Below, piece by piece: positions 1 to 60,118 of a stretch of DNA of 64,000 nt. Made by a program: the position numbers and the translations under genes. Within the stretch, counting starts at the first letter, position 1, and each line of letters opens with the position of its first letter. Source of the DNA: Lewinella sp. 4G2 (GTDB taxonomy: Bacteria; Bacteroidota; Bacteroidia; Chitinophagales; Saprospiraceae). The notes beneath the pieces are model-generated. The model had not been told where the DNA came from. It did no database searches and worked only from the letters and a program-made list of their open reading frames with translations. The DNA lies in assembly GCF_001625015.1 (NCBI RefSeq), contig NZ_LVWJ02000014.1, positions 1,860,001 through 1,924,000 of the forward strand. The letters run 5' to 3'.

Positions 1-2507
1 GTAAAGGCCGTGTCCGTACCGGTGTTCTGAAAGTGAAGCTCGTAGGTCAACCGGGTACCGGGCTGGACGTCATTATCCTCGCCGAGGCCGGTGGGGAAGA
101 CCAACTTCTCGTTAGGGTCGAAGCTACCCTGGTTGGTCCGGCAGTACGTGGCCCGCCCGAGTAGCTCGTTGTCGGAACTGATTTTGGTGGCGTTGCCCGT
201 CATTACACCGCCGCAGGATTCAATGATGGCGGAAGGGAAGATGGCCCCCGTAGCACCAGCCGCCGCGCTCTGGCGGGCGATCACCTGCACGGTTTCTCCC
301 GTCGCTGGGAAGGACAAGCGTAAGCTTTCCCCACCAGCTAGGCCGGGAACGATTTGTGAGTAGTCCTGAGAGAGCTGGCCGCTAACGTACACGTAATACT
401 CCAGGTCCTCCGTCATGGCCTCCGTCCCTACGTTGAGGATGTCGAAGAATAGGGAATCGGTCTCACAGCCGGCGCCACGGACGTCGATCAGGGCGATGCC
501 ATCACCCGGGTTGCAGGCATTATCTGCGGTGATTTGTGCTTCAATGCAGTGGAGCTGGCCAAAATCTGATTCGCAGCTGACGATGAAGTCGATTCGAATC
601 TGACCGTTGCCGAAGGCATTTATGTCGCTCAAATTGAAGGTCAGGGTGTCGCCTTCGCGAGTGAAGTCAGCCGTTGCGGTTACTTCTTCGAATAGCGGGT
701 CGACGGTGACTTTTAGCTCGGTGTTTTGGGCGGACCTGCTACCTCGATTCGCGTAGTTTACGTAGGCACTATTTTCGAAACAACGGCGGAAACGGCTGCT
801 GACAATCTCTACGTTTAAAGAAGCACAGTTCTGTACTTCTATCATAGGGGAAATAAGCATCGGAGGATCACCATCATCATCCGTACCGATCGCCCGAGTG
901 CCACAGCCTACTAATGAGCTGTCCAATGGAGCGAATGTCGTTACGGCGTAATCGCCAGCAAGCACAAGGCCCTCCCACTTTCCAGCGGAGTCAGTTACGA
1001 AATAATACTCCCGCGGCCCGTTGCTGAGACGGACGTTTATTCCCGGGATACCCACCCCGCTTAGATTCGGTGAAGCGTTACAGGTGCCGTCGTCATTGAG
1101 GCGAACGAAGCCGCTGACGTTCGGAGCAAAGTCGCAGGTATCGGGAATGGTAACGTCCAGGAACATGGTTGTATCTCCACAGGTGGTGCTCACCTCCACG
1201 GAGTAAGTGCCCACGTTGGCCTCTAAAAGCTCTGCAAATGAACGTTCGTTAGCATTAACCCTAATTTCAGCTGGTCCGAAGAAGTTGAAGGTGATGTCCG
1301 GAGACGTCAGGGAGCTCTCAGGGTTGAAGACGAATACGGTGGCCTCTTCCAGTAAGCAGTCGTCGGGTCTGCGCTGCTCAAATACGAGATTGTCAAGGCG
1401 GCCATCCTCGATTATTCCAAAACCTTCCACCCAGCAAGCCTCTTCTTCTACGGGTTCCACGAAGTAAGTAGTTGTAGTGTCGAACACAAACTCCGTTATG
1501 GTCACAGGATCATTAAGGCCTTCCAGTAATTGGAAACGAATGCCAGGGACAAATTCAACGGGTAAGCGAAAGGTGTCGGTCAGGATGGTGCAGTCCAACA
1601 GGCGAACGGTATCGGGGAAGACGACCTCAGTAGGTAGAACCTGGTAAGATGCTGAGGCTACGCAGCCGTTAGCAAAGGATACCGTTACGCTATACTCCTG
1701 CTGGTATTCCACCCCAACTAAAAAGGGTAGGGTGCTACCATCACTCCAGAGGTAACCCAACACCGGCGAAGCGTCGTCGTGGACAGCCTGGAGGGTTACT
1801 GCGCCGGGGTCAGTACAAAAAGATCCTATCTGTTCAATGCCCAGGAAAGGGTCCGGGGCGCTTACGTTGAAGGTAATGAAGGTCTGGCACCCATCGGCAA
1901 AAACGGCGGTAAGGTCGTTAAAACCGGGCTCCACGTTATTGATGAGGAAGGTGTCATTAATGGTTTCCCCGATCACTACCCCGTTTAGTGTTAGCGTTGC
2001 CTGACCAAGGCCGCGGGTTATGATCTCCAGATCGGCACTTGGGTTGTCACACGAAGGGGAACGGGTTTCTTGAAATGTCAGGTCACATCCAATTCCCGTG
2101 ACCCAGCCGATATCCGCCGCCGACGTTACGTCTTCCCCTTCGCCGAGCTGGATTTCTACAGCTACCGAACCGGGTAGTGGGTCGCTGTCAACCGTCGGGT
2201 CATCGCCCTGTTGGCTGAGCGTGAGCGATAGATTCTGATCTTGAGGTCCGAATTCAACGAGGTAATTGCCCGCCGCCAAATTAGGGTAGGTGTAGTTGCC
2301 GTCTTGGGTGAAGATGACGTACAGATTGCCTGTATTTATTTCCAATAGCCGCACATCGGTAGCTACCCCAGGCTCACCGACGTCGCGGATGCCATTTTCA
2401 TTCTCGTCCAACCAGCTGATGCCGGAGATGGAGCCGCAACCTTCAGTACAGTTTTGGGCGGATAGGCTGGCGCTAAAAAGCGCGAGGAGTAATAGGGTAA
2501 AACGCAC
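1..2507 (-). CDS. Giant secreted surface protein, 5' part (3' end outside window)
   Basis: The reading frame is open from a GTG at 2507 to the window edge (835 full codons, no stop). The N-terminus MRFTLLLLALFSASLSAQ is a signal peptide ending in SAQ. It is followed at about residues 20-120 by a SdrD/Cna-B-like segment (GSISGISWLDENENGIRDVGEPG), then Ig-like, cysteine-containing repeats. Near the window edge the protein reads SFDPNEKLVFPTG and then YELHFQNTGTDTAF, the hallmark of the repeated domain (DUF7619 type) found in large Bacteroidota surface proteins. Such proteins are normally exported by the type IX system, but the C-terminal sorting domain would lie outside the window. GTG is chosen because it starts exactly at the signal peptide and no ATG is nearby. 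TACCTTTA (minus strand, 2530-2537) resembles a -7 box. The hairpin array begins 38 bp upstream. The exact function is unknown. Confidence 0.85.
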   Translation of the reverse strand, partial: MRFTLLLLALFSASLSAQNCTEGCGSISGISWLDENENGIRDVGEPGVATDVRLLEINTGNLYVIFTQDGNYTYPNLAAGNYLVEFGPQDQNLSLTLSQQGDDPTVDSDPLPGSVAVEIQLGEGEDVTSAADIGWVTGIGCDLTFQETRSPSCDNPSADLEIITRGLGQATLTLNGVVIGETINDTFLINNVEPGFNDLTAVFADGCQTFITFNVSAPDPFLGIEQIGSFCTDPGAVTLQAVHDDASPVLGYLWSDGSTLPFLVGVEYQQEYSVTVSFANGCVASASYQVLPTEVVFPDTVRLLDCTILTDTFRLPVEFVPGIRFQLLEGLNDPVTITEFVFDTTTTYFVEPVEEEACWVEGFGIIEDGRLDNLVFEQRRPDDCLLEEATVFVFNPESSLTSPDITFNFFGPAEIRVNANERSFAELLEANVGTYSVEVSTTCGDTTMFLDVTIPDTCDFAPNVSGFVRLNDDGTCNASPNLSGVGIPGINVRLSNGPREYYFVTDSAGKWEGLVLAGDYAVTTFAPLDSSLVGCGTRAIGTDDDGDPPMLISPMIEVQNCASLNVEIVSSRFRRCFENSAYVNYANRGSRSAQNTELKVTVDPLFEEVTATADFTREGDTLTFNLSDINAFGNGQIRIDFIVSCESDFGQLHCIEAQITADNACNPGDGIALIDVRGAGCETDSLFFDILNVGTEAMTEDLEYYVYVSGQLSQDYSQIVPGLAGGESLRLSFPATGETVQVIARQSAAAGATGAIFPSAIIESCGGVMTGNATKISSDNELLGRATYCRTNQGSFDPNEKLVFPTGLGEDNDVQPGTRLTYELHFQNTGTDTAF

Positions 2508-2544
2508 GTTTCTAGGGTTTAATTCCCAATAAAGGTACGCCGCC

Positions 2545-3540
2545 GTCGTCGGACGATTCACCAGGGAACAAGCGCAGCTTGTTTGCTGGCATCGTCCGAC
2601 GACTTGATAGTTTACTGAAGGAAATTTCCCTTACCACGCACAGATGAAGTCGTCGGACGAAGCTGCTGATTTTCCCTTCGTAAAATCACCAGTGAATCGT
2701 CCGACGACTTAATAATTTACTGAAGGAAATTTCCCTTGCCACGCACAGATGAAGTCGTCGGACGAAGCTGCTGATTTTTCCTTCGTAAAATCACCAGTGA
2801 ATCGTCCGACGACTTACTAGTTTACTGAAGGAAATTTCACTTGCCACGCACAGATAAAGTCGTCGGACGAAACTGCTGATTTTCCTTCGTAAAATCACCA
2901 GTGAATCGTCCGACGACTTACTAATTTACTGAAGGAAATTTCCCTTGCCACGCACAGATGAAGTCGTCGGACGAAACTGCTAATTTTCCTTCGTAAAATC
3001 ACCAGTGAATCGTCCGACGACTTAATAGTCTACTGAAGGAAATTTCCCTTGCCACGCACAGATAAAGTCGTTGGACGAAACTGCTACTTTTCCTTCGTGA
3101 AATCACCAGTGAATCGTCCGACGACTTAGTAGTTTACTGAAGGAAATTTCCCTTGCTACGCACAGATAAAGTCGTCGGACGAACCTGCTAATTTTCCTTC
3201 GTAAAATCACCGGTGAATCGTCCGACGACTTAATAGTCTACTGAAGGAAATTTCCCTTGCCACGCACAGATAAAGTCGTCGGACGAAACTGCTACTTTTC
3301 CTTCGTGAAATCACCAGTGAATCGTCCGACGACTTAATAATTTACTGAAGGAATTTTCCCTTGCCACGCACAGATAAAGTCGTCGGACGAAACTGCTGAT
3401 TTTCCTTCGTAAAATCACCAGTGAATCGTTCGACGACTTACTAGTTTACTGAAAGAAATTTCCCTTGCCACGCACAGATGAAGTCGTCGGACGAACCTGC
3501 TAATTTTCCTTCGTAAAATCACCAGTGAATCGTTCGACGA
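2545..3540. repeat. Tandem array of long hairpins (family A), nine 104-105 bp units plus one divergent hairpin
   Basis: The 11-mer TCGTCGGACGA starts at 2650, 2755, 2860, 2964, 3068 (one mismatch), 3172, 3276, 3380 and 3484. Its partner TCGTCCGACGA starts at 2697, 2802, 2906, 3010, 3114, 3218, 3322, 3426 and 3530 (the last two with one mismatch). Each pair forms a 13-14 bp outer stem around a roughly 35-nt arm. That arm folds again in most units (ACTG, TGATTTT, loop CCTTCGT, AAAATCA, CAGT). The roughly 46-nt linker carries the palindrome GGAAATTTCC. The first hairpin (2545-2604) has the same outer stem but a different inner stem (CCAG, AACAAGC / GCTTGTT, CTGG). Blocks 3010-3124 and 3218-3332 are almost identical, which indicates duplication of two units at a time. 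The array lies between the divergent surface-protein gene and uvrA. Its function is unknown. Confidence 0.93.
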
Positions 3541-3553
3541 CAAAGAGGAGCTT

Positions 3554-3571
3554 GGCGCTGCCGCAGGTGCC
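3554..3571. repeat. REP-like element, family B copy 1
   Basis: GGCGCTGCCGCAGGTGCC lies just after the last hairpin of the array and before uvrA. It matches the family B consensus GGGCGCTGCCGCGGGTGCC seen about 15 times in the window. Confidence 0.8.
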
Positions 3572-3660
3572 AGGGAATGGGCGAGTAAAAATTATGACTG
3601 CCAAGCAACAGAATATCGTAAAAACGAATGGGTGGCCAACATTTTGTGCTAAAACCTAAG

Positions 3661-3668
3661 TAGATTTG
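3661..3668 (+). promoter_or_regulatory. Candidate -7 box for uvrA
   Basis: TAGATTTG matches the Bacteroidota -7 consensus TAnnTTTG. The TTTG at 3643-3646 is only 14 nt upstream, shorter than the usual 19-21, so the -33 element is doubtful. The implied leader to the ATG at 3746 is about 70 nt. Confidence 0.4.
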
Positions 3669-3745
3669 TAGCCGTTCCAACAAGCGCAGTGATGTCCTAA
3701 TAATTGGCGTTGCCCTTCCACCGAATAGTTCGTTCCCTCCCCCTT

Positions 3746-6685
3746 ATGGCTAAGTCCTCCGCCCCTACCACCTTTTCCTCTGCACCCGCGACAGCGCCCA
3801 AACCGGCGAAGCGGAAAAAGGCCAAGAAAAATGAGTTGCCGCACTCGGAGCGTTTCCTCACCGTGATCGGAGCGAAGGAGCATAATCTGAAGGACATCAA
3901 CGTGGAATTGCCCCGCAACGAATTGGTCGTGATCACCGGCCTCTCCGGATCGGGAAAATCGAGCCTGGCCTTTGACACCATTTACGCGGAAGGGCAGCGG
4001 CGCTACATGGAGACGTTTTCGAGCTACGCCCGGCAATTCATGGGCACGATGGAGCGGCCCGACGTGGAGCAAATTACCGGCCTCAGTCCCGTGATCTCCA
4101 TCGAGCAGAAGACGACCAACCGCAGCCCCCGCTCCACGGTGGGTACGGTGACCGAGATCTACGATTTCCTGCGCCTCCTCTACGCCCGGGCGGGAACGGC
4201 CTACTCCTACGTAACCGGCCTCCCGATGCTCCGGTACACCGAGGAGCAAATGAAGGACCAGATTGCGGAGACTTACGCCGGCAAAAAGATGATTGTGCTC
4301 GCCCCCCTCATCCGCGGGCGGAAGGGCCACTACCGCGAACTGTTCGAACAGGTGCGCAAACAGGGATACACCAAAGTACGGGTGGACGGTGAACTGCAGG
4401 ACCTCAAAGAAGGGATGCAGGTGAGCCGCTACAAAGTGCACGACATCGAACTGGTGGTGGACCGCATTAAAATGAGCCCCGAACGGGCCGACCGCCTCAG
4501 CCAAAGCCTTCAGACCGCCCTCAAAATGGGGGACGGACTCGTCTTCATCCAGGACGTCGACAGCGGCGAAGTATCGACTTTCTCCAAGAATCTGATGGAC
4601 CCGGAGAACAACATCAGTTACGAAGAGCCGAGCCCAAACACCTTCAGTTTCAACAGCCCCTACGGTTACTGTAAAACTTGCCGTGGACTGGGGAACCTGA
4701 ACAGCCCGGACATCGACAAGATCATCCCGGATCGCAAGAAAAGCATCAATAAGGGCGGGCTGGTACCGCTGGGCGAGAACCGCGATAACACCACCTTCAA
4801 GCAGGTAAAAGCCATCGCCAAAAAGTACAAATTCAAGCTCTCGGAGCCGATCGAAAAGATCAATCCCGAAGGCCTGAACGTCCTGCTCTACGGCGCTAAG
4901 AAAAAGGCCGGCCGCCAGAAGAAAAGCCGCTACGACAAGATCGCGAACGACATGGTCTGGGACGTAGAAAAGAACGGCCTCATCGCCATGATTGCCCGTT
5001 GGTACGAAGAAACGACGAGCGAACGCATCCGCACCTGGGCCGAGGACTTCATGACCATCGATACCTGCCCCACCTGCGAAGGCGACCGACTTCGGCTGGA
5101 AGCCCGCAACTACAAGATCAAGGGCATGACCATCAGCGACCTCGCCCGCATGGACCTGGGCGAACTCGGTGTCTGGATGGAAACCGCCGAGGAAGGCATG
5201 GACGAGCGGACGCGGCTGATTGCGACGGACATCCTCAAGGAAATTCGCTTCCGCCTCCGCTTCCTGCTGCACGTGGGCCTAGGCTACCTCAGCCTGGACC
5301 GCCCCGGCCGGACGCTCTCCGGCGGCGAAGCCCAACGGATCCGCCTCGCCACCCAGATCGGTAGCCAGCTGACGGGTATCACCTACATTCTGGACGAGCC
5401 GAGTATCGGCCTCCACCAACGGGATAACCAACGCCTGATCCAGGCCCTGCGGGATTTGACGGACATCGGCAACACCGTCCTGGTCGTAGAACACGATAAG
5501 GATATCATGATGGCCAGTGACTACCTACTTGACCTCGGCCCCGGCGCCGGCGTGAAGGGCGGCAAAGTGGTGACGGCCGGCAAGCCGAAGGAGTTCCTCC
5601 TCAAGAAAAACGCGGGGAGCATCACGAGTGACTATCTCTCGGGCCGACGGGAGATCGCCATCCCGGAAAAGCGGCGCAAGGGCCACGCCAAGCAGTACCT
5701 GGAACTGAAGGGAGCAATGGGTAATAACCTGAAGAACGTCAGTATCAAGATCCCCCTCGGCACCTTCACCTGCGTGACGGGCGTGAGTGGCTCCGGGAAG
5801 TCGACGCTGATCAACGAGACGCTGTACCCCATTTTGCGACAGCATTTCTACAACTCCGTTAAACGGCCCATGCCCTACAAATCGGTAAAGGGTTTGGAGC
5901 ATTTGGACAAGGTGATCGACATCGACCAATCGCCGATCGGGCGGACGCCACGGTCCAACCCGGCTACCTACACGGGGGTGTTTACGGATATCCGCGCCCT
6001 GTTTACCAAGCTCCCCGAATCGATGATCCGCGGCTACAAACCGGGTCGCTTCAGTTTTAATGTAAAGGGCGGCCGCTGCGAAACCTGCAAGGGCAGCGGG
6101 ATGCGGACGATCGAGATGAACTTTCTTCCGGACGTCGAGGTAGAATGCGAAACCTGCCAGGGCAAGCGCTTCAACCGGGAGACGCTGGAGATCCTCTACA
6201 AAGGCAAGAGCATCAATGACGTGCTGAATATGTCCGTCGCCGAAGCCGCGGAGTTCTTCGAGGCCATCCCCAAGATCTACCGGCGGATGAAAACGCTGAA
6301 GGATGTAGGCCTCGGCTACATCACCCTCGGCCAGCGGGCGACGACGCTTTCCGGAGGGGAAGCCCAGCGGGTAAAGTTGGCGGAGGAACTCTCCAAACGC
6401 GCCACCGGCCAGACAGTCTACATCCTCGATGAGCCAACGACCGGTCTTCACTTTGAGGATATCCAGTACTTACTACGCGTCCTGCAGGGCCTGGTAGAAA
6501 AGGGTAATACCGTCATCGTCATCGAGCACTCGATGGACGTCATCAAAGTCGCCGACTACCTCATTGATATGGGGCCGGAAGGTGGCCGGGGTGGTGGCAC
6601 CCTCGTTGCGAAGGGCACGCCGGAGCAGGTGGCGAAGGTGGCGGAGAGCCATACTGGGCGGTTTTTGGTGGAGGAGTTGGGGTGA
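3746..6685 (+). CDS. uvrA: UvrABC excinuclease subunit A
   Basis: This is the damage-recognition ATPase of nucleotide excision repair, which loads UvrB at DNA lesions in the cytoplasm. The predicted protein is 979 aa. It carries two ABC modules: Walker A GLSGSGKSS at about residue 65 and GVSGSGKST near 680, with signatures LSGGEAQRIRL and LSGGEAQRVKL and Walker B ILDEPSIGLH and ILDEPTTGLH. Zinc-finger cysteine pairs are visible in CKTCRG, CPTCEG, CETCKG and CETCQG. An N-terminal lysine/alanine-rich tail of about 30 aa precedes the family core, explaining why it is a little longer than the usual 940 aa. The ATG at 3746 is preferred to an in-frame TTG at 3704. It has no operon partner. The divergent surface-protein gene lies on the other side of the hairpin array. 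Confidence 0.97.
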   Translation: MAKSSAPTTFSSAPATAPKPAKRKKAKKNELPHSERFLTVIGAKEHNLKDINVELPRNELVVITGLSGSGKSSLAFDTIYAEGQRRYMETFSSYARQFMGTMERPDVEQITGLSPVISIEQKTTNRSPRSTVGTVTEIYDFLRLLYARAGTAYSYVTGLPMLRYTEEQMKDQIAETYAGKKMIVLAPLIRGRKGHYRELFEQVRKQGYTKVRVDGELQDLKEGMQVSRYKVHDIELVVDRIKMSPERADRLSQSLQTALKMGDGLVFIQDVDSGEVSTFSKNLMDPENNISYEEPSPNTFSFNSPYGYCKTCRGLGNLNSPDIDKIIPDRKKSINKGGLVPLGENRDNTTFKQVKAIAKKYKFKLSEPIEKINPEGLNVLLYGAKKKAGRQKKSRYDKIANDMVWDVEKNGLIAMIARWYEETTSERIRTWAEDFMTIDTCPTCEGDRLRLEARNYKIKGMTISDLARMDLGELGVWMETAEEGMDERTRLIATDILKEIRFRLRFLLHVGLGYLSLDRPGRTLSGGEAQRIRLATQIGSQLTGITYILDEPSIGLHQRDNQRLIQALRDLTDIGNTVLVVEHDKDIMMASDYLLDLGPGAGVKGGKVVTAGKPKEFLLKKNAGSITSDYLSGRREIAIPEKRRKGHAKQYLELKGAMGNNLKNVSIKIPLGTFTCVTGVSGSGKSTLINETLYPILRQHFYNSVKRPMPYKSVKGLEHLDKVIDIDQSPIGRTPRSNPATYTGVFTDIRALFTKLPESMIRGYKPGRFSFNVKGGRCETCKGSGMRTIEMNFLPDVEVECETCQGKRFNRETLEILYKGKSINDVLNMSVAEAAEFFEAIPKIYRRMKTLKDVGLGYITLGQRATTLSGGEAQRVKLAEELSKRATGQTVYILDEPTTGLHFEDIQYLLRVLQGLVEKGNTVIVIEHSMDVIKVADYLIDMGPEGGRGGGTLVAKGTPEQVAKVAESHTGRFLVEELG

Positions 6686-7040
6686 TCCTTATCAGTTATT
6701 AGATGCCCGCTATTGCGATCGGTCGTTCACGAAACACTAATACCGGATCGGGTGCTTGATCCACTGTTTGGTAGTTATATCCCCCGTGAACGCTCGTGGA
6801 TAATGGTAATGCGTGCCCTAACAACAACCCCCACCCCAAACCCATCTAAATTTTTAACTTTGTCACCCCTCGTTCGTCGAGAATCCATCCCAACCGGTCG
6901 GTGGGGGAGTGGATTGGTCGAGGTGGGGCCCTTGGGCCGGGCGGCGCCTTTACCCCGGGCGTACCTTAGGGTCATCAACAAGGGTCGATAACTTACTGGT
7001 TAAGCGCGCGATCCGCGAAACGCTTTAAACACTATACAAC
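6686..7040. other. Intergenic region, candidate promoter only
   Basis: These 355 bp between uvrA and the transport operon hold no convincing gene; two short overlapping ORFs on opposite strands have no recognisable features. TAACTTTG at 6855-6862 is a good -7 box for the downstream operon and would give a leader of about 170 nt. No clear -33 TTG precedes it, and no riboswitch was recognised. Confidence 0.5.
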
Positions 7041-8822
7041 ATGAGACTTACCACGCTTTCTAAATTACTGATCACCTTTCTCGTCGTCGGTATCGTCGGG
7101 TTCCTGATCTGGAAATTCTCCCCGGAGGTCGCCATCGAAGAATCCCAACAACTTGACGGGATCAACGTGGATGACAGTGACGTAAACAACATTACGGACG
7201 CCGCCAAGCTGCCCCTCGCCGGGGAATCCCGCTCCAGCAAAGTAGGTAACCTGCCCCTCACCCGAATGGCCGCTTACGCCTGGAACGCTCAGTCCGGTAT
7301 CATCGGCGCCAATGGTGGCCCCTTCACTACCCAGGGCTCCATGATGGAAGCCAACAATGTGAACCTGGAGATCATCCGCCAGGACTGGCTTTCGGAACTC
7401 CGGAACCTGCAGATGAAGTTCGTCCAGGAGTTTGACGCCGGTGAGGCTCACCCCGACCAGGGCGTTTTCGCCATCATGATGATGGGTGACGGCGCTCCCT
7501 ACTACATCTCCTCCGTCCAGCAAGCCCTTAACGATAAGTACGGGCAGGACAAGTACCACGTACAGGTAGTCGGTGCCGTCGGCCTCAGCTACGGCGAGGA
7601 CAAACTCATCGGCCCTCCCAAATGGAAGATGAACCCCAAAAGCATGAAGGGCGCCCTGATCTCCACCGTAATCGGTGACGGTGACTGGGTAACGACCGTT
7701 AACTACGCCTTCGCTAACGGCATCCCCGTCAACCCGGACCCCACCACCTACGACCCTGAAGCCGTCAACTTCTACGCTTCGGCGAACGACGACTACATCG
7801 AATCCGCCAAGGAACTCATCAAGTCAGTTAAGGAAGGCTGGACGATCCCCCTCAAGGAGATCAAGGATGGCCGTCTAACCGGCCGCACCGTCAACAAAAC
7901 CATCGACGGATGTGCCACCTGGACGCCCGGTGACAAGATGGTCTTCGACGCCATCGACGGCTACACCGACATCGTTTCCACCAAGGAATTCAACAACCAG
8001 ATGGCCACCACCGTCATCGCGGTCAAAGAATGGTGTGAGCGCAACCCCGAAACCGTGAGCAACATCCTCAAGGCTTCCTACACCAGCTCCAACCAGATGA
8101 AGCTCTTCAACGAGTGGCGCCGCCGCGCGGCCGAAGCCGTCACGTCCACCTACGAAATGGAGGATGCTGACTACTGGTACGGCATGTTCAAGGGCCAGCA
8201 GGGAGAGAAAAATGGCATCAGCTACAACATGGGTGGCTCGCGGGTCTTCAACCTCGCTGACGCCCGACAGTACTACGGTCTGGAGGACGGCGTAAATCGC
8301 TACAAGGCCGTGTACGACCAGGTATCCTACTACCTCAAGGAACTGAACCCCGCCGGCTTCAACCAGAACGTTAAGCGGATCATCCCCTACAACGAGGCGG
8401 TGAACCTGGACTACCTGAAGGCCGTCAAGGACATCGATGCGGGTGAGGCTTACGCTTCGGACTACTCCGAGACCACCAACAAGCCCCGGTCCGTACTCGC
8501 CGAGGGTGAGTTCAACATCAACTTCGCCTCCGGCCGCGCTACGCTGGCTCCCGGTGCCAAGGACCTGCTGGACAACATCTACAACATCCTCATCCAGGCG
8601 GAGGACGCCAAGCTCGAACTCGTCGGCCACACCGACCGGGACGGTGATGCGGACAGCAACTTCATCCTCAGCCAAGCGCGTGCCCAGGCGGTGAAGACCT
8701 ACATGATCCAGCGGGGCATCCCCAGTAGCCGTTTCCGCAAGGTCATTGGTAAGGGAGAATCCGAGCCAATCGGTAACAACAAGGCCGAAAATCGCCGGGT
8801 AGTCATCACCCTGCTGAACTAA
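7041..8822 (+). CDS. Membrane-anchored ABC substrate-binding protein fused to OmpA domain
   Basis: 593 aa. One N-terminal membrane segment (about residues 9-26, LLITFLVVGIVGFLIWKF) anchors the protein. Residues of about 75-440 look like a periplasmic substrate-binding domain of the NitT/TauT/phosphate superfamily. The C-terminus (about 490-593) is an OmpA-like peptidoglycan-binding domain: FNINFASGRATL, GHTDRDGDAD with the binding Asp, and NRRV with the binding Arg. It is followed by a TauC-type permease and an ATPase, so the three should form one importer-like complex whose receptor is tethered to both inner membrane and cell wall. The substrate cannot be read from the sequence. Similar fusions are usually annotated as phosphate ABC transporter substrate-binding/OmpA proteins (recalled, not searched). 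A strong terminator follows, so the downstream genes may have their own promoter. Confidence 0.85.
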   Translation: MRLTTLSKLLITFLVVGIVGFLIWKFSPEVAIEESQQLDGINVDDSDVNNITDAAKLPLAGESRSSKVGNLPLTRMAAYAWNAQSGIIGANGGPFTTQGSMMEANNVNLEIIRQDWLSELRNLQMKFVQEFDAGEAHPDQGVFAIMMMGDGAPYYISSVQQALNDKYGQDKYHVQVVGAVGLSYGEDKLIGPPKWKMNPKSMKGALISTVIGDGDWVTTVNYAFANGIPVNPDPTTYDPEAVNFYASANDDYIESAKELIKSVKEGWTIPLKEIKDGRLTGRTVNKTIDGCATWTPGDKMVFDAIDGYTDIVSTKEFNNQMATTVIAVKEWCERNPETVSNILKASYTSSNQMKLFNEWRRRAAEAVTSTYEMEDADYWYGMFKGQQGEKNGISYNMGGSRVFNLADARQYYGLEDGVNRYKAVYDQVSYYLKELNPAGFNQNVKRIIPYNEAVNLDYLKAVKDIDAGEAYASDYSETTNKPRSVLAEGEFNINFASGRATLAPGAKDLLDNIYNILIQAEDAKLELVGHTDRDGDADSNFILSQARAQAVKTYMIQRGIPSSRFRKVIGKGESEPIGNNKAENRRVVITLLN

Positions 8823-8840
8823 GGAGCCATCTCCCACGCC

Positions 8841-8881
8841 CACCGGTTACTGGATCACTCCGGTAGCCGGTGCGGTTTTTT
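8841..8881 (+). terminator. Rho-independent terminator after SBP-OmpA gene
   Basis: The stem CACCGG-TTACTGGA / TCCGGTAG-CCGGTG (with two G-T pairs and a TCAC loop) is followed by CGG and a run of six T. It lies 19 bp after the stop of the SBP-OmpA gene and separates it from the permease gene. Confidence 0.88.
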
Positions 8882-9026
8882 GTCTACCCTCAGCGTCCTG
8901 CTAATTACTGCCACTCAAAGAGGGAGCGGTAATTAAGCGCCACCGTAGGAATGTGGTTGTCCGGGATACAATGCGCTTGCCCTATCCATTCGGACGAATC
9001 AACGCTGAACCTTAACAATAATCGAG

Positions 9027-9812
9027 ATGCCCTCCCTCAATCCCAAATCCTGGTTCAAGCCCTTTGAACGGATCTCCAAGCAGCACACGGCCTTTATTTC
9101 GGCTGCGTGGGTGGTCCTGATCCTGGCAATTTGGTTCATCGGCACTTCTGGTTCCACCAAACTGTTCCCACCTCCTTCGTTGGTTTGGGCCGGTTTTGTG
9201 GACCTTTTCAACGAAGGGCTGGTCAGCCACATCGCTTCCAGCCTTTGGTTGTGCGCGCAGGCTACGGTGATCTCCGTAGTGCTCAGTCTCATTGTCGCTT
9301 ATCTATCGCCGATCCCGGCCATCCGGCCGCTGGCGGTCATGCTTTCACGGATGCGGTACCTGCCCCTGACAGGTATCACGTTTTACCTGGCCATGGCTGT
9401 TAATGGTCCGCGGGAAATGCAGATTTTGGTCCTCGTAGTCTTCATGAGCCTGTACTTCATCACTTCGCTGCTGGGCGTCATCGCGGCCATTCCGCAGGAG
9501 GAACTGGACCACGCCCGTTCCCTCCAGTGTTCGCGCTGGGAGGTGCTCTGGGAGGTCGTCATCAAGGGACGGCTGGATTACGTCATCGAAGTTCTCCGCC
9601 AGAACCTGGCCATCACCTGGATGATGCTCGTTACGGTGGAGTCCATCCTCATTGCTACCGGTGGGTTGGGCGTCCTCATCAAGAATTCGGATCGTTTCGG
9701 GAATCACGGCCGGATAGTCGCGCTGCAGATCGTCATCCTCCTCGTCGGTCTGGGCATCGATGTTTTCCTGAACTTCCTCCGCAGGATGCTTTTCCGTTAC
9801 TCTAAGATCTAG
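9027..9812 (+). CDS. ABC transporter permease, NitT/TauT type
   Basis: 261 aa inner-membrane permease with five or six hydrophobic segments (for example AAWVVLILAIWFIGTSG near residues 27-43 and LQIVILLVGLGIDVFLNFL near the C-terminus). The cytoplasmic EAA-type loop that contacts the ATPase is visible as EELDHARSLQCSRWEVLWEVV. The fold and length fit the BPD_transp_1 family of nitrate/taurine/sulfonate importers. The ATG follows an AT-rich leader (AACAATAATCGAG). It lies about 200 bp after the SBP-OmpA gene, behind a terminator, and 55 bp before the ATPase gene with a word hairpin in between. The substrate is not deducible. Confidence 0.88.
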   Translation: MPSLNPKSWFKPFERISKQHTAFISAAWVVLILAIWFIGTSGSTKLFPPPSLVWAGFVDLFNEGLVSHIASSLWLCAQATVISVVLSLIVAYLSPIPAIRPLAVMLSRMRYLPLTGITFYLAMAVNGPREMQILVLVVFMSLYFITSLLGVIAAIPQEELDHARSLQCSRWEVLWEVVIKGRLDYVIEVLRQNLAITWMMLVTVESILIATGGLGVLIKNSDRFGNHGRIVALQIVILLVGLGIDVFLNFLRRMLFRYSKI

Positions 9813-9863
9813 TGCTTTGGTGTTTTGGTCCTTTGGGCCAAAGCACCAAAGTACCAAAGCACT
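9811..9863. repeat. Word hairpin built from CCAAAGCA-like words
   Basis: AGTGCTTTGGTGTTTTGG on the left is almost perfectly complementary to CCAAAGTACCAAAGCACT on the right, around CCTTTGGGCCAAAG. The element begins at the permease stop codon and ends five bases before the ATPase ATG. The same word recurs at 59205-59315. Confidence 0.85.
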
Positions 9864-9867
9864 ATCT

Positions 9868-10713
9868 ATGCGCTACCAACACGCCGAAGCCATCCTCCAA
9901 GTCGACAACGTCGGCGTAGCCTACGGAGACAAGCAGATCATCCAGAACATCACGTTCAAGGAAATGGACGTCCTGCGGCCGGACAAGGTCCAGGGCCAGA
10001 CGATCGCTTTCGTGGGCCGCTCGGGCCGGGGTAAGTCCACCCTCTTCCGTTCGCTGGCCGGGCTCGAAAGGCCGACTGAAGGCACCATCCTGATCTCCGA
10101 CCTCGATGCGCAGGAAGGCGACACTCACCCGCCCCTCCGTGGCGTACGGGAGGGGGACGTCGGCTTCGTCAGCCAGAATTACGTGCTGTTCCGCCACAAG
10201 ACCATTCAGCAGGCGATGGAGTTCGCCATGCGTAAGCGGGAGGACGTTACTGACGCTGAAAAGCAAACCATCATCGACCAGCACCTGAAGGATTGGGGGC
10301 TGGAGCAGGTCCGGGACCAGTATCCCAACGAACTGTCTGGTGGCCAGCGGCAACGGACGGCTATTCTGGAGCAAGTCTTGAGCTCCACGAATTACATCAT
10401 TATGGATGAGCCCTTTTCGGGGCTGGACGTCGGAAATATTCAGAACGTCATCAACGCCTTCAAGCTCATCAACCTGAGCCACGAGTTGGCGACCATCATT
10501 TTCTGTACCCACGATATTGAGTTGGCCGTCGAGCTGGCGGATAGCCTTTACGTCATCGGTTACCCCACCAAGCCGGATGGGACGCTGGATAACGTCGGCA
10601 CCCTCGTCAAACACTTCGATATGAAGGCCCGGGGCGTTGCCTGGTCGGATCACTTCAGCCGCGAGCACCAGTTGCTTGTCGAGGAAGTGAAGCAGGCCAT
10701 TATGGAATCCTAA
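9868..10713 (+). CDS. ABC transporter ATP-binding protein, NitT/TauT type
   Basis: 281 aa cytoplasmic ATPase that energises the adjacent permease. Walker A is GRSGRGKST, the ABC signature LSGGQRQRTA, Walker B YIIMDEPFSGLD, the switch histidine CTHDIE, and the Q-loop SQNYVLF. The ATG at 9868 (MRYQHAEAILQ) is chosen over an upstream GTG because the upstream stretch is the translated word hairpin. Nucleotides 9811-9863 could fold over the translation initiation region. It is followed after 61 bp by a metallophosphoesterase gene, possibly co-transcribed. Confidence 0.9.
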   Translation: MRYQHAEAILQVDNVGVAYGDKQIIQNITFKEMDVLRPDKVQGQTIAFVGRSGRGKSTLFRSLAGLERPTEGTILISDLDAQEGDTHPPLRGVREGDVGFVSQNYVLFRHKTIQQAMEFAMRKREDVTDAEKQTIIDQHLKDWGLEQVRDQYPNELSGGQRQRTAILEQVLSSTNYIIMDEPFSGLDVGNIQNVINAFKLINLSHELATIIFCTHDIELAVELADSLYVIGYPTKPDGTLDNVGTLVKHFDMKARGVAWSDHFSREHQLLVEEVKQAIMES

Positions 10714-10774
10714 CCGTACTCGAACATAGCTTACCCGAAGTGCCGTTATACCGTCACCGCAACCAACCCCACCT

Positions 10775-11530
10775 TTGTTAAAGATCGCGCAAATCACGGA
10801 CCTCCACCTACTACCTCCGGGCGAGTGCCTCATGGGTTTGGACGTGGTCGCCCGATTTGAGCGAGTGATGGCCCACGCGGCTAAGTTTCAGCCGGACGTC
10901 TATTTTTTTACCGGTGATTTCTGTGCCGCCATGCCGGAAGAACGGGAGATTTTCTGGCTCGGTAATCGCCTCTTCGAGCTGGAGGTGCCCTACTTCGTCG
11001 TTCCGGGAAATCACGACGATCGTACGATGCTTCGCAATGCCTTTGAGTTGCCGGGAGACGGAGACGAACCAATTCTTCAGCGGGTTACCATCAAGGATCG
11101 GACCTTTTTGTTACTCGACACCCGCTACGCTAAGGTTGGAGACGCTCAGATCAACTGGCTACGCGAGCAGTTGAAAGATCTTGGCTCGGCAAACATCATC
11201 ATGCACCACCCGCCGCTCAAAGTGGGCAAGCCGTTCATGGACGATAATTATTCCCTGGACGAGGCCCAGAAGGTCTTACAGGTGCTTCAAGAACACGATG
11301 CCCCGGTAGTGGTATACTGCGGCCACTACCATTCTTCGCGCACGATCATTGACGGTAACGTAACCGTCCATATCTGCCCGCCCACCAGCTTTTTTATTAA
11401 GCCGGATGCGGCCGTTTTCGAACAGGATGAACTGCCGCCCGCCTACCAGCAAATCGTGTACGTCGGGACCGGCAAACGCACCGTAACCCCTTTCTACCTA
11501 TCCGAAAGCCCGTCGGTACCACCCCAATAG
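10775..11530 (+). CDS. Calcineurin-like metallophosphoesterase (CpdA-like)
   Basis: 251 aa, starting at a TTG (MLKIAQITDLHLL). The dinuclear-metal signature is complete: DLH, GDF (GDxx), GNHDD, and HH plus GHYHSS towards the C-terminus. The family hydrolyses phosphodiesters such as cyclic nucleotides or lipid-linked phosphates. The layout resembles 3',5'-cyclic AMP phosphodiesterase CpdA, but the substrate cannot be fixed. No signal peptide is seen, so it is probably cytoplasmic. It follows the ABC genes on the same strand and ends 33 bp inside the convergent glycosyltransferase gene. Confidence 0.82.
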   Translation: MLKIAQITDLHLLPPGECLMGLDVVARFERVMAHAAKFQPDVYFFTGDFCAAMPEEREIFWLGNRLFELEVPYFVVPGNHDDRTMLRNAFELPGDGDEPILQRVTIKDRTFLLLDTRYAKVGDAQINWLREQLKDLGSANIIMHHPPLKVGKPFMDDNYSLDEAQKVLQVLQEHDAPVVVYCGHYHSSRTIIDGNVTVHICPPTSFFIKPDAAVFEQDELPPAYQQIVYVGTGKRTVTPFYLSESPSVPPQ

Positions 11531-12220
11531 TCGATCGTTTTTGGCTCCCAATCGGTAAGCGAGGTAAAGCCCCACGAAGACCAATTGCGTATAAACTACC
11601 CCGTGTTTTCGGTACTTCCTGGCCGAAGTCGTCACCGTTGCGCCCAGCAAGTGAAAGCCGCCGCAATGCTGTTTCAAGCGACGGATCAGATCGTTGTCTT
11701 CCAATAACTCCATCCCTTCGTCGAACCCTCCAACGGACTTGAAATCAGCGCTGGCTACCAAAAGCGACTGGTCGCCAAAGCGAAAAGCTTGCAGGTCAAA
11801 ACGGCTTAAGTACCCATATAACCGGAGGGGAGAATACCGTTTTTGATAATCAAACCGCAGCCGAAATGCCGCCGGTAGACCCAGATCTATCGCATCCCTC
11901 AGCTCGCTTTCCCAGTTTGGAGGAACGATGGTATCGGCGTGCAGGAACCAAAGAAAAGGTCCTTTTGCAATCATAGCTCCCGCATTCATTTGTCGGGCGC
12001 GGCCGCGGGTGCCAAGCAAAGTGGAGCAACCGTAGGACCGAGCGACGGCTAGGGTACTATCCTCACTTCCTCCGTCGACAACGATCACCTCCAGACCTCC
12101 CTCACCTTGAACGTCGCCCAAAGCTTCGAGGGTCGCTGGCAGGGTAGCCGCCTCGTTCAACGTAGGAATGATGACGGAACACCAGGGAGAAGAAGATTGG
12201 AATGAAGGAATAGCTTCCAA
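11498..12220 (-). CDS. Family 2 glycosyltransferase, TIGR04283 (arsenosugar/rSAM-associated) type
   Basis: 240 aa GT-A enzyme. It carries SVIIPTLNEAATL, VIVVDGGSEDST, GRARQMNAGA, the DXD-like FLHADT, the acceptor segment FDEGMELLEDNDLIRRLKQ and the C-terminal TTSARKYRKHGVV. This pattern is that of transferases labelled arsenosugar biosynthesis or rSAM/selenodomain-associated transferase 2. No radical-SAM partner is visible here, so the acceptor is unknown. The only usable start is a TTG at 12220, 17 bp after the galM stop. The 3' end overlaps the convergent phosphoesterase gene. A family B REP-like sequence (11995-12013) encodes GTRGRAR at the conserved GRARQ motif. Confidence 0.8.
   Translation of the reverse strand: MEAIPSFQSSSPWCSVIIPTLNEAATLPATLEALGDVQGEGGLEVIVVDGGSEDSTLAVARSYGCSTLLGTRGRARQMNAGAMIAKGPFLWFLHADTIVPPNWESELRDAIDLGLPAAFRLRFDYQKRYSPLRLYGYLSRFDLQAFRFGDQSLLVASADFKSVGGFDEGMELLEDNDLIRRLKQHCGGFHLLGATVTTSARKYRKHGVVYTQLVFVGLYLAYRLGAKNDRLLGWYRRAFG
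11995..12013. repeat. REP-like sequence, family B (inside CDS)
   Basis: GGGCGCGGCCGCGGGTGCC differs from the family B consensus at one position. It encodes GTRGRAR on the minus strand, part of a motif conserved in this transferase family, so chance resemblance is possible. Confidence 0.5.
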
Positions 12221-12237
12221 TTTAATGGGTATTCCAG

Positions 12238-13272
12238 TTAGCTGAACCGGTAAACCGTCTTGGTTTCGTACATCAAATTTTTACCGAGATATGGGGTGCG
12301 GAAGTTGGCTTGATTGGGGGAGTTGGGGAAGTGCTGGGTTTCCAAACAGATGGCGCCATTCGTAGGAAAGGCCTGGCCGTCGCGCCCCGTAAACTGGCCC
12401 GCAGCGAAATTGGCCGTGAAGACCTGTAGCCCCGGCTCGGTAGTGAAACAGCTAAGCTGCCGGCCGGTCTCCGGGTCACGCAGATGAGCTACCTTCCGAA
12501 GGGTGCCATCATAATCATCAACTACAAAGTTGTGGTCGTACCCGTTTGTTCGTTGTACCTGCGGGTGCTCACCGTGGAGGTCCTTGTCGATGGGTTTTGC
12601 CACCCTAAAATCAAAAGGAGTACCGTCAACTGGCTGAATTTCTCCCGTAGGAATGCCTTCATCATCGATGGGCGTGTATTGGCTCGCCCAGAGCTGCATC
12701 TCCTGGCCCCGAACGGTAGGCGCCGCTCCGATATTGAAATAGGCGTGGTTCGTGAGATTAAGAATCGTGTCCTGGTCCGAGGTGGCGGAGTAATCAATCG
12801 TCAGTGCGTTATCGTCATCCCAGGTATAGGAACAGAGTACGGTGAGTCGACCGGGGAACCCCATGTGCCCATCCTCACTCACGTGCTTGAGCACCAAGGT
12901 AGTGCCGGCCATATCGGTGGTGCCCTCCACCATCCAGACTTGTTTGTCGAAGCCTTCCGGCCCGCCGTGCAATTGGTGAATTCCTTCGTTGGGGACGAGT
13001 TCGTAGGTATGCCCGTTCAGTGAAAACTGAGCTTTGGCGATCCGGTTACCGTACCTGCCGATGCAGGCTCCAAAGTAGGGGTGGTCACCGAGGTAACCTT
13101 CCAAGTTATCGTACCCGATTACCATTTCGGCACCGTCGATAACGATTGATGTGATCGTAGCTCCGTAGGTGCTGATCTTTACGGTGTTACCGTGGCGGTT
13201 GATCAGCGTGAAAAGGTCTGCGTTGCCCTGACCGGGGACGACGCCAAAGTCGTCTTTTTTAATTGAACTCAT
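12238..13272 (-). CDS. galM: Aldose 1-epimerase (mutarotase)
   Basis: 344 aa. It interconverts the alpha and beta anomers of galactose or glucose, the entry step of the Leloir pathway. Diagnostic residues are visible: GRYGNRI, the substrate-binding His in QLHGG, the catalytic-acid His in NHAYFN, and the catalytic base Glu in CLETQHFPNSPNQ. No signal peptide is seen. ATG at 13272. It lies 17 bp upstream of the glycosyltransferase gene on the same strand and is probably co-transcribed with it. Other galactose genes are not nearby. Confidence 0.95.
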   Translation of the reverse strand: MSSIKKDDFGVVPGQGNADLFTLINRHGNTVKISTYGATITSIVIDGAEMVIGYDNLEGYLGDHPYFGACIGRYGNRIAKAQFSLNGHTYELVPNEGIHQLHGGPEGFDKQVWMVEGTTDMAGTTLVLKHVSEDGHMGFPGRLTVLCSYTWDDDNALTIDYSATSDQDTILNLTNHAYFNIGAAPTVRGQEMQLWASQYTPIDDEGIPTGEIQPVDGTPFDFRVAKPIDKDLHGEHPQVQRTNGYDHNFVVDDYDGTLRKVAHLRDPETGRQLSCFTTEPGLQVFTANFAAGQFTGRDGQAFPTNGAICLETQHFPNSPNQANFRTPYLGKNLMYETKTVYRFS

Positions 13273-13320
13273 TAGCTGGGATAGAAAGCGAAAGGTGGTC
13301 CCATAACTTAAGCGAGTTCG

Positions 13321-14400
13321 CTAAAGTTCAACCGCCGTGGCAAAGCCTCCCTGCTCCACCAAAGATTGATATTCCGACCAAACGGCTTCCGTTAGTGCTG
13401 AGGTGACGGTCGCTAACTGAGTTTCAACTGCTTGTAGGTCGGCGTCGCTCCCTTGGCTGCGGTGTACGTCGATGGCGTAATTTCTTGCCCTTACGGTTGG
13501 GGTATCATCAACTTGCTCCAGCGGGGTAAGGAAGGCAACGTCCGCACCGCCCAGGGCCATGGACCGCGCTTGCTGCAAAAGCAGTTCCTGATTCTCTTCC
13601 CAGTCACCCGTCATGGTGGTGATGTCCGTATGCGCCCCGATCTGGGTAGCTACGGTGTCGGATACGCCGAACTCGGCCAGTACCTTTGGCCACAGCGCGC
13701 GCAGCGTTCGCAACTTGGCTACATCTCCGTGAAAGGAAGTGCCAACGGTTACCGCAAATTTCAGGTGTTGAGCCGCAATAGTCGGTGAGTAACCGTGATC
13801 CTGAATAGCCTTTAGGTAGGCGGCCCCTTTGGATAGCGCAAGGGCGATTTCGGCGTCCGCCACGTCCGTACCGTTATTGAAACCGGCGGCGTTCACCTGG
13901 AGGACGGCAAAGCCAGGCATCCACCGGTTCACGAAACTAAGGAGGCGCACGAGTGGCGGAAAAGGAGCGTCGGACCAATCCAGTAAAGGATCAAAGTCGA
14001 TAGAACCTCTCACTTTGCTCAGGTCTATTCCTTCCGCCCGGAGGTAGGTGATGAGGTCCCGGAATAACTCCGCGGGGTCCTGACCGGGGTAGCGCAGACT
14101 ACAGTGAAGTTCCGTAACCGTCGGGTCGATATTTTTCAAGATCCGCCGAATTGCGGCCGTATCCGGTTGCCGGTAAAGCCGGAAAAGTAAAGCTTCCGCT
14201 CCTCGCTCGATCTCCGCCTGGGCGTAGCGGTTCATTTCCCCGTAGGAACCTTCGTCGATGTAAGCACCAACGCGGTAGGGTAATTGCTGTGTGCCGGGGA
14301 GTGCCGAAAGGTCATCATCCAAATCGTAGATAGACTTCCCGGATAATTGATCCGACAAAGTCGTCGTCCAGGAATCAAAGTTTAAATCGGATAAGGACAT
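13321..14400 (-). CDS. Methylmalonyl-CoA mutase small-subunit-like protein
   Basis: 359 aa, related to the TIM-barrel half of methylmalonyl-CoA mutase (recognised from YRVGAYIDEGSYGEMNRYA, VNAAGFNNGTDVADAEIALALSKGAAYL and the IGAHTDITTMTGDWEENQELLLQQARSMALGGAD region). It lacks the C-terminal cobalamin-binding domain (no DxHxxG). That fits the non-catalytic MutA-type small subunit, which pairs with a catalytic MutB. MutB normally follows directly; here no large-subunit gene lies in the window and the next gene downstream is galM. The start ATG at 14400 follows a leader with mutually exclusive hairpins. A split operon, or a reduced paralogue, are both possible. Confidence 0.75.
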   Translation of the reverse strand: MSLSDLNFDSWTTTLSDQLSGKSIYDLDDDLSALPGTQQLPYRVGAYIDEGSYGEMNRYAQAEIERGAEALLFRLYRQPDTAAIRRILKNIDPTVTELHCSLRYPGQDPAELFRDLITYLRAEGIDLSKVRGSIDFDPLLDWSDAPFPPLVRLLSFVNRWMPGFAVLQVNAAGFNNGTDVADAEIALALSKGAAYLKAIQDHGYSPTIAAQHLKFAVTVGTSFHGDVAKLRTLRALWPKVLAEFGVSDTVATQIGAHTDITTMTGDWEENQELLLQQARSMALGGADVAFLTPLEQVDDTPTVRARNYAIDVHRSQGSDADLQAVETQLATVTSALTEAVWSEYQSLVEQGGFATAVEL

Positions 14401-14772
14401 ACGCTGGGGCAGTTAAGTCAGTTCGGCCGTGGCGGGGGGAGGAGGGCCTTCCCAAAAGAAAGCATAAAAGATTCTTCCAGCCACGTTGCTGGCTGGGAGC
14501 CAGCCGTTGATGTTGGAAAGTTACGGTACCGCTACTCAATTTTCCGGATATCGATTCGCAAATGCGTGGGTAACAATTGTTAGGGATGCGATTTTTTGCC
14601 AAGGCACTTTTTAAGCTACGTCAAGAATGTGTTGATCACTTCATTTGAGTTGATAATGTCGGCGTAAAGCAGGAAGAAGCTCAGTAATATTTGTTTCCTT
14701 AACTTGAGGGTACGAAGCCTTTGCTTCTGGTTCTTTTGGGTCAGGACCCATGTTTATAGTGTCAGCGATTTC
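14401..14772. other. Divergent intergenic region with competing hairpins
   Basis: These 372 bp hold no gene. CCAGCC (14477-14482), GGCTGG (14491-14496) and CCAGCC (14500-14505) can form two mutually exclusive stems. A further outer pair is TTCCA / TGGAA (14475-14479 with 14514-14518). On the minus strand they lie about 75-120 nt ahead of the MutA-like gene, a layout reminiscent of an attenuator. No cobalamin riboswitch core was found. Confidence 0.5.
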
Positions 14773-19086: not shown

Positions 19087-19120
19087 TTTGAGGTGCTGTC
19101 CCTTTTCCAGTCTTCCTAAG

Positions 19121-42830: not shown

Positions 42831-42894
42831 AACGAATCCCCATTAAAATTTAGTCGGATTTATGGGGCTAGATATAAGTAGGATTTTAAATTTC

Positions 42895-43048
42895 GCAACT
42901 CGCAACTCGCAACTCGCAACTCGCAACTCGCAACTCGCAACTCGCAACTCGCAACTCGCAACTCGCAACTCGCAACTCGCAACTCGCAACTCGCAACTCG
43001 CAACTCGCAACTCGCAACTCGCAACTCGCAACTCGCAACTCGCAACTC
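42895..43048. repeat. Perfect heptamer array (GCAACTC)22
   Basis: 154 bp equal exactly 22 copies of GCAACTC without a single change. Perfect identity indicates very recent expansion or active maintenance. The same word appears in the hairpin between gpmI and rsmD. Confidence 0.95.
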
Positions 43049-52217: not shown

Positions 52218-52227
52218 GTCCTCGCCG

Positions 52228-52479
52228 TCGTCGGACGATTCACCAGCACAAAGGCGCAGCCGTGTGGTGGCATCGTCCGACGACTTGGTTGTGATTCTCT
52301 AAAGTCGTCGGACGATTCACCAGCACAAAGGCGCGGCCGCGTGATGGCATCGTCCGACGACTTGGTAATCATTCTCTAAAGTCGTCGGACGAAGCTGAGG
52401 TGCTTGCTATCGCAATCACCTCAGTGAATCGTCCGACGACTTGCTTGTCATCGCAATCACCCCGTGAATCCTCCAACGA
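52228..52479. repeat. Three family A hairpins and a decayed fourth, directly after porU
   Basis: TCGTCGGACGA starts at 52228, 52305 and 52382; TCGTCCGACGA at 52273, 52350 and 52429. A degenerate half (TCCTCCAACGA) is at 52469-52479. The outer stem equals that of the 2.5-3.5 kb array. The first two inner arms contain CCA and CAC pairing with GTG and TGG. The third has CTGAGGTG pairing with CACCTCAG. The flank CGCCGTCGTCGGACGATT is identical to the start of the first array (2541-2558). The 346-bp region 52218-52563 holds no gene. Confidence 0.9.
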
Positions 52480-60039: not shown

Positions 60040-60118
60040 TAGTCGGGTAGTCGGGTAGTACGGTAGTCGGGTAGTACCGCACTACCATACTACCCGACTA
60101 CCGTACTACCCGACTACC
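60040..60118. repeat. Word hairpin of ACTACCCG words between convergent genes
   Basis: Left arm GTCGGGTAGTACGGTAGTCGGGTAGT, right arm ACTACCATACTACCCGACTACCG and a second ACTACCCGACTACC. The arms are complementary over most of their length. It lies directly between the stop codons of two convergent genes. Confidence 0.88.

Follow-up and report, generated by a model that had tools for sequence, protein, structure and literature searches.

The window analyzed here, that is, the whole 64,000-nt stretch of DNA from Lewinella sp. 4G2, contains close to one end a surface-protein gene and uvrA, which are transcribed divergently from a shared intergenic space bounded by the GTG start of the former at 2507 and the ATG start of the latter at 3746, as the original prediction had described it. 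The surface protein (~1,031 aa, with SdrD_B, DUF7619 and Por_Secre_tail domains) is large, not "giant" as it was initially called, and its GTG start is supported by the surface-gene ortholog in locus L109. The space between the two genes holds an array of hairpins at 2545-3541, which were scored with R1, a covariance model trained on 29 distinct elements of the same genome. The features at the locus are as follows:

3..2507, minus strand: surface-protein gene with a GTG start at 2507, running past the window edge (domain matches)
2545..2603, plus strand: hairpin 1, forward, with its own inner stem and perfect 13-bp arms (R1, 75.9 bits)
2604..2648, no strand: first of nine 45-bp linkers (unit alignment)
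2649..2708, minus strand: reversed unit 1 (R1, 72.8 bits)
2754..2813, minus strand: reversed unit 2 (R1, 71.6 bits)
2859..2917, minus strand: reversed unit 3 (R1, 76.9 bits)
2963..3021, minus strand: reversed unit 4 (R1, 75.8 bits)
3067..3125, minus strand: reversed unit 5, one arm of which is TCGTTGGACGA (R1, 63.3 bits)
3171..3229, minus strand: reversed unit 6 (R1, 70.5 bits)
3275..3333, minus strand: reversed unit 7, with the same inner part as unit 5 (R1, 69.1 bits)
3379..3437, minus strand: reversed unit 8 (R1, 71.6 bits)
3483..3541, minus strand: reversed unit 9 (R1, 69.2 bits)
3554..3571, plus strand: copy of a separate 18-bp repeat family, adjoining the array
3654..3661, plus strand: TAGATTTG, a possible -7 box for uvrA, between the array and uvrA
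3746..6685, plus strand: uvrA, with orthologs 82-93% identical in 19 of 20 congeners, one of them (locus L126) cut off at its 3' end

The sequence TAGATTTG may correspond to the -7 consensus of Bacteroidota-type promoters, in which case uvrA could have a promoter of its own outside the array. Window positions 1-20000 were scanned for sigma-70 promoters and terminators with nothing above shuffled sequences, and an Rfam search of positions 1-8000 gave nothing near cut-off, with two sub-threshold microRNA matches at 29.9/70 and 22.1/100 bits.

A regular array of nine hairpin units had been predicted in this space. Indeed, the array and its 104-105 bp spacing are real, but R1 resolved ten hairpins, the first one on the plus strand and the following nine on the minus strand. 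Start-to-start distances among the nine reversed hairpins are 105, 105 and then 104 bp six times, all nine linkers are 45 bp long, and Tandem Repeats Finder described 2591-3541 as a 104-bp repeat of 9.1 copies with 93% matches. Seventeen of the twenty arms are exact (nine TCGTCGGACGA and eight TCGTCCGACGA), and the other three are one base off. The palindrome GGAAATTTCC, which had been described for each linker, is present but exact in only six of the nine. When one array unit was folded as single-stranded DNA, a free energy of -19.7 kcal/mol was obtained (z -6.4), which none of 200 shuffled sequences equalled. Among the nine reversed units, the identity is 98% and 97% in the two arms and 92% in the linkers, and the inner parts of the seven equal-length units are 94% identical. 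Since the linkers are nearly as alike as the stems, the regularity of the array is best read as the result mainly of recent tandem duplication rather than of kept spacing, and the 45-bp linker would belong to the duplicated unit as much as the hairpin does. The flanks of other clusters differ from the array linker as judged by eye. The dismissal of a CRISPR in the original prediction was borne out, as the repeats are not split by unrelated spacers and the linkers are 92% identical to one another. An assembly artefact is an unlikely origin of the array, because arrays of the same kind are present in other assemblies.

Each unit is a hairpin of mostly 57-60 nt with two inverted 12-nt arms, each of which is almost palindromic. 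Across the alignment of 29 elements, there is almost no variation in the outer 12 bp (GTCGTCGGACGA / TCGTCCGACGAC) or in the adjoining TTCAC, and TTCAC is present on one side only, giving an asymmetric internal loop. The inner stem of ~13 bp, closed by a small loop, varies in sequence between loci while its pairing is kept. Changes on both sides were found in 11 of its 13 pairs; double-change cells numbered 88 against a shuffled mean of 29.8, and the covariation score was 0.279 compared with 0.101 in shuffles and a maximum of 0.127 when the partner strand was slid. As these 29 elements were a choice out of 45, the count was repeated on all 47 main-type hairpins (45 distinct) of the genome. In this full set, 89.9% of the cells were paired against 79.1% in shuffles, double changes numbered 130 against 46.0, and the score was 0.271 against 0.104 (maximum 0.119 when slid). 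Two of the five measures were not decisive on the full set: 39 of 500 shuffles had at least as many doubly changed pairs (12), and 26 of 500 at least as many further pair types (33). Elements within one cluster are related, so the covariation counts overstate independence, and changes were also seen between loci. The apical triloop, read on the TTCAC strand, is GNA in 15 of the 29 elements and TNC in none, and stem wobbles on this strand include 24 G-T against 13 A-C. The GNA loops and the G-T excess suggest that folding takes place on the TTCAC strand, and the predicted energies differ little by strand (TTCAC lower in 18/29 as RNA and in 17/29, with one tie, as DNA). Two further readings of the hairpin were rejected. 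The R boxes at the foot of an integron attC hairpin are RYYYAAC and GTTRRRY, and both were present in none of 50 units; as for intrinsic terminators, TTTT occurs within 10 nt in four of the 50.

The 11-mer stem word occurs in 103 copies (53 and 50 by strand) in the 5.2-Mb genome, against 5 (3 and 2) of a reversed control, and the exact word pair in 37 copies against none. The genome-wide search proposed in the original prediction thus revealed a family, and the alternative that the words are no more frequent than expected by chance did not hold. With R1 at E<=0.01, the loci examined in this genome contain at least 60 hairpins in at least 18 clusters, the weakest matches counted scoring 20-22 bits; these loci were chosen from the word-search matches listed, with one place added from the R1 search of the genus, so the counts are lower bounds. 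Besides the main type, a shorter 39-nt hairpin with the same arms is present. A second cluster of three hairpins, missing from the original prediction, lies in the same window at 52227-52440:

52227..52284, plus strand: hairpin 1 of the second cluster (R1)
52304..52361, plus strand: hairpin 2 (R1)
52381..52440, minus strand: hairpin 3 (R1)

Its first hairpin begins 9 nt after the stop codon of the neighbouring gene, which has a weak Por_Secre_tail match below the family cut-off.

Across the genus, R1 matches at E<=0.001 were found in 11 of 21 genomes, this one included (10 of 20 congeners), and the exact pair in 5 of 21, again with this one. At the family level and under stricter filters, R1 matched at E<=1e-4 in 3 of 150 genomes including this one, two of the three being Neolewinella, and at the phylum level the two-word pattern (with S at mid-word) was found in 2 of 395 genomes, also including this one. 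The distribution of the family is patchy. Arrays of another period and linker occur in other genomes, with three units each in loci L243, L244 and L247, and also in L259. Among genome contigs, the exact pair was present in 35 stretches, some of them from Neolewinella and others from high-GC organisms; in the latter the word probably codes for Ser-Ser-Asp, and cross-phylum homology is not claimed. The same 11-bp arms with other inner parts were also seen in six contigs of the Bacteroidetes MAG GSL.Bin13 (L034, L037, L046, L048, L051 and L064) and in five contigs of a Thermoanaerobaculia MAG (L038, L044, L052, L061 and L065). A phage or plasmid origin was considered and rejected, since searches of 50,697 phage records and 72,556 plasmid records gave no match, and a viral contig collection contained no exact pair. 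In a literature search, no paper on such repeats in Lewinella or Neolewinella was recognised, and the 11-mer occurred in eight papers, all unrelated by title.

In this genome, 17 of the 18 clusters contain several hairpins, and in 14 of these 17, the array at 2545-3541 included, both outermost TTCAC ends point outward. A neighbouring open frame has its stop codon no more than 50 nt away from 19 of the cluster ends, and for 14 of these the distance is 15 nt at most; gene ends were taken from long open frames found by a simple script, many with Pfam matches, rather than from a gene caller. The hairpins at 18 of the 19 near-stop ends are in sense orientation; for some short-type elements and for one symmetric element, only 5-7 bits support the strand. 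This orientation and the outward-facing TTCAC express one and the same fact and are not independent. Among eight clusters between genes of the same direction, five start within 15 nt after the stop codon, compared with 1.2 expected at random (P 0.001); this count left out L074 and L084, whose neighbour is unclear, as well as convergent and divergent clusters, and between facing stop codons there is so little free space that the distance carries no information. In the congeners G007, G013 and G019 the sense rule is not clearly obeyed and the relation is weaker, with three sense and two antisense among ends 0-15 nt from a stop codon (n=5, one overlapping end omitted). The exceptions to the stop-codon rule are the array at 2545-3541 and L086, both of which lie between divergent genes. 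The DNA-repair genes uvrA, mutS and a photolyase gene adjoin hairpin clusters (at C14:1862546, C14:2051717 and C19:210453), an adjacency that was noticed after the fact and is possibly due to chance.

To trace how the site came about, uvrA orthologs and the 1.5 kb upstream of them were compared in 20 of the 21 genus genomes, this one included, the 21st giving a fragment only. In the nearest relative, G002, uvrA is 93% identical and belongs to the same divergent pair, and the intergenic space of 213 bp contains no stem word; its flanks align in part, including the 18-bp word found beside the array in strain 4G2. No stem word with up to one mismatch was found upstream of uvrA in 16 of the 19 congeners. 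Among the others, locus L124 has a single such word, and in G007 two one-mismatch words form a short palindrome that lies 100 bp before uvrA (L118 1377-1406; R1, 26 bits). In G003, two blocks (L259 521-989 and 1608-1978) together contain 28 words with other arms, and the nearer block begins, in our reading, ~40 bp before the uvrA start. In both G003 and G007, a PorZ-like gene replaces the surface gene beside uvrA. The uvrA-front arrays of two species can be read as having grown independently at a site that tolerates or favours them, and an old presence before uvrA with losses may also account for them. Because related words precede uvrA in G003 and G007, the lack of the array in G002 speaks less strongly for a recent gain. 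The 110 nt behind mutS in G002 are likewise without the hairpin that follows mutS in strain 4G2. Just after the mutS stop codon of G004 (L196), a hairpin of similar plan was seen with other arms, GTCGCCAG ... CTGGCGAC, and a GCGAAGC apex, hinting that the stem word of this kind of element may differ between species.

Several other repeats were noticed. The 18-bp word GGCGCTGNCGCAGGTGCC occurs in 362 and 363 copies on the two strands of the genome with up to one mismatch, against none of the reversed control, the strands being alike. Its copies in the window are at 3554-3571, 29844-29861 and 53690-53707, with 12 more places at 1-2 mismatches, and at the two loci looked at it lies in-frame in a long open frame, reading GADAGA. 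Among the matches listed, G002 mostly carries the dialect GGCGCGGNCGCGGGTGCC, and the joint pattern of both has exact counts of 170 and 170 in this genome, 114 and 130 in G002, 24 and 25 in G001, and 35 and 25 in G013, with none of the control. This word looks like an uptake sequence or an intragenic palindromic repeat. The window also contains a perfect heptamer repeat, TCGCAAC, at 42893-43048 (22.3 copies), a candidate phase-variation tract, and facing octamer arrays, TAGTCGGG and ACTACCCG, at 60040-60119, whose word recurs near two RAYT loci (L088 6872-7000 and L091 5507-5600).

A possible mobiliser was sought among Y1_Tnp genes, of which this genome has six matches and 11 genus genomes together have 45; 33 of these loci were examined with flanks of up to 1.5 kb. 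The exact stem word was present in the flanks of none of the 33 loci, and a lone one-mismatch word in those of two, while other 14-nt inverted matches between the flanks were found at 21. The classical REPtron arrangement was therefore not seen at these 33 loci. Two RAYT-like genes of this genome (L066/L088 and L069/L091) carry other flanking inverted repeats, among which a 36-bp arm, TGTAGAATGGGCCACC..., and a GTAG-starting repeat, GTAGCGAGGGGATGCTTCCCCTCG, were noted. A lone stem word ~2.3 kb from one RAYT sits inside a long open frame. RAYT genes of subclass 2.6, which are mostly from Bacteroidetes, are described in PMC6006769 as flanked by atypical structures without the GTAG word, and these untagged structures leave room for a RAYT acting in trans.

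Taken together, the array in our judgement probably arose by local multiplication from one copy of a dispersed, palindromic REP/REPIN-like family of Neolewinella. Among the roles that had been proposed for it, the REPIN-like option fits best, given the dispersed sites, the inverted palindromic arms, the inverted clusters and the absence from G002. A competing view takes the hairpins as cis-acting 3'-UTR RNAs, whose outer arms and TTCAC would be read by a host protein to tune termination or mRNA stability, with clusters that are selected and not selfish. The covarying inner stem, the GNA loops and G-T bias that point to the TTCAC strand as the folded one, and the sense-oriented position behind stop codons would all be expected of such RNAs, but ten of the 20 congeners have no R1 match, the uvrA and mutS sites of G002 are empty, and the neighbours scanned with Pfam share no evident function. 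Moreover, TTTT follows within 10 nt in only 4 of 50 units, so that these are not ordinary intrinsic terminators, no Rfam match came near cut-off in window positions 1-8000, and the array and L086 lie between divergent genes. This view is thus possible but rather doubtful, and the structured-RNA role originally proposed for the array itself, although in line with the covariation and with the post-stop position elsewhere, is at odds with two neighbours that both face the array by their 5' ends. We give a similarly low chance to true REPINs moved in trans by a RAYT (TnpA_REP) of the strain itself, as atypical untagged REPs of the kind in Bacteroidetes subclass 2.6: the stem flanks no RAYT locus examined, and the two RAYT-like genes of this genome have other inverted repeats, against which stand the paired inverted palindromic words, the six Y1_Tnp matches and the untagged atypical structures described beside subclass 2.6 genes (PMC6006769).

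The remaining alternatives concern the double-stranded DNA and the mutational process. The 11-bp arm, TCGTC-S-GACGA, could be the operator of a dimeric protein, which would make the 1-kb array a platform or insulator of twenty sites. No part of the unit is better conserved than the arms, which are near-perfect palindromes, and related word arrays also precede uvrA in G003; however, such a platform predicts neither the TTCAC nor the place behind stop codons, and the role proposed earlier leaves an inner stem that is paired yet variable in sequence unexplained, which makes it very improbable. As long palindromes are corrected by template switching during replication, the pairing of the inner stem might also be kept by mutation perfecting palindromes rather than by structural selection, and the outer arms, being inverted repeats, would suit this process. 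The strand-biased GNA loops and wobbles and the constant asymmetric TTCAC bulge are unexpected from a symmetric correction, and we hold this explanation to be unlikely.

Returning to the REP/REPIN-like family, its copies would spread as a single-strand structure through a factor acting in trans, and most insertions would survive just behind stop codons. There, by analogy with the REPs of E. coli, a hairpin could act on the 3' end of the mRNA or on translation termination; it might make mRNA ends more stable or impede ribosomes at the stop codon. The array would go back to the insertion of two paired hairpins between the divergent genes, followed by tandem duplication of one hairpin with its 45-bp flank. 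Since neither neighbour ends at the array, a post-stop role cannot apply there, and the array at 2545-3541 is most likely a by-product of duplication without a dedicated function. If the promoter of the surface gene lies beyond the array, its mRNA would have a long hairpin leader, which could lower expression. Recent copying from one master is not obvious, judging from inner stems that differ greatly between loci. A bolder version, to which we assign only a small chance, is a new class of mobile or selected single-strand element that is recognised by its fixed arms and TTCAC and spread by a factor other than a flanking RAYT, whose inner stem is free cargo, and which settles behind stop codons, grows into kilobase arrays and is drawn repeatedly to the front of uvrA. 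The presence of arrays of the word before uvrA in two species raises the question of why this site is involved. The family also offers a test case: its arms are constant, the covariation of its inner stem speaks for a folded single strand, and it is present in some congeners and absent from others. It further allows one to ask about the effects of stop-proximal hairpins on translation and mRNA ends outside the gamma-proteobacteria.

Compared with known systems, the family resembles REPINs and BIMEs in its dispersed intergenic inverted pairs of short palindromic words (at least 60 hairpins in at least 18 clusters), in its several inverted units per cluster, mostly between tandem or convergent genes, and in its patchy presence among relatives. 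Unlike them, the Neolewinella hairpin has no GTAG tag at its foot (GTAG or CTAC within 10 nt of the end in 7 of 50 units), its arms are near-invariant while the inner stem is variable yet paired, and no RAYT locus examined lies beside the hairpins (0 of the 33 Y1_Tnp loci covered among 45 matches). The family is therefore REPIN/BIME-like but not a proven member of the REPIN/RAYT system, as two of the features tested, the tag and, at the loci examined, a flanking RAYT, are lacking.

The CGTC-tagged REPs described by Di Nocera et al. 2013 (PMC3733652) also occur in Bacteroidetes among other phyla, are mostly dimers and are reported there without an association with transposase genes, and REP-like repeats without a known mobiliser, such as this super-family, are an open problem. 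The REPs of that report are mostly found behind coding regions, and the CGTC-tagged ones are given an unpaired CGTC tag, 8-9 bp stems that start from A-T pairs, 4-5 nt loops and a CCA-like tail; in the family studied here, in contrast, the CGTC is paired inside a 12-bp outer stem, and the hairpin is mostly 57-60 nt. In E. coli, REPs located no more than 15 nt from a stop codon are reported to hinder ribosomes or to affect the mRNA 3' end (Liang 2015, as described in PMC12306157). The Neolewinella hairpin is unrelated to them in sequence, and such a function has been shown only in E. coli, but the two are alike in position, with the hairpin right behind the stop codon and 14 of the 19 near ends within 15 nt of it.
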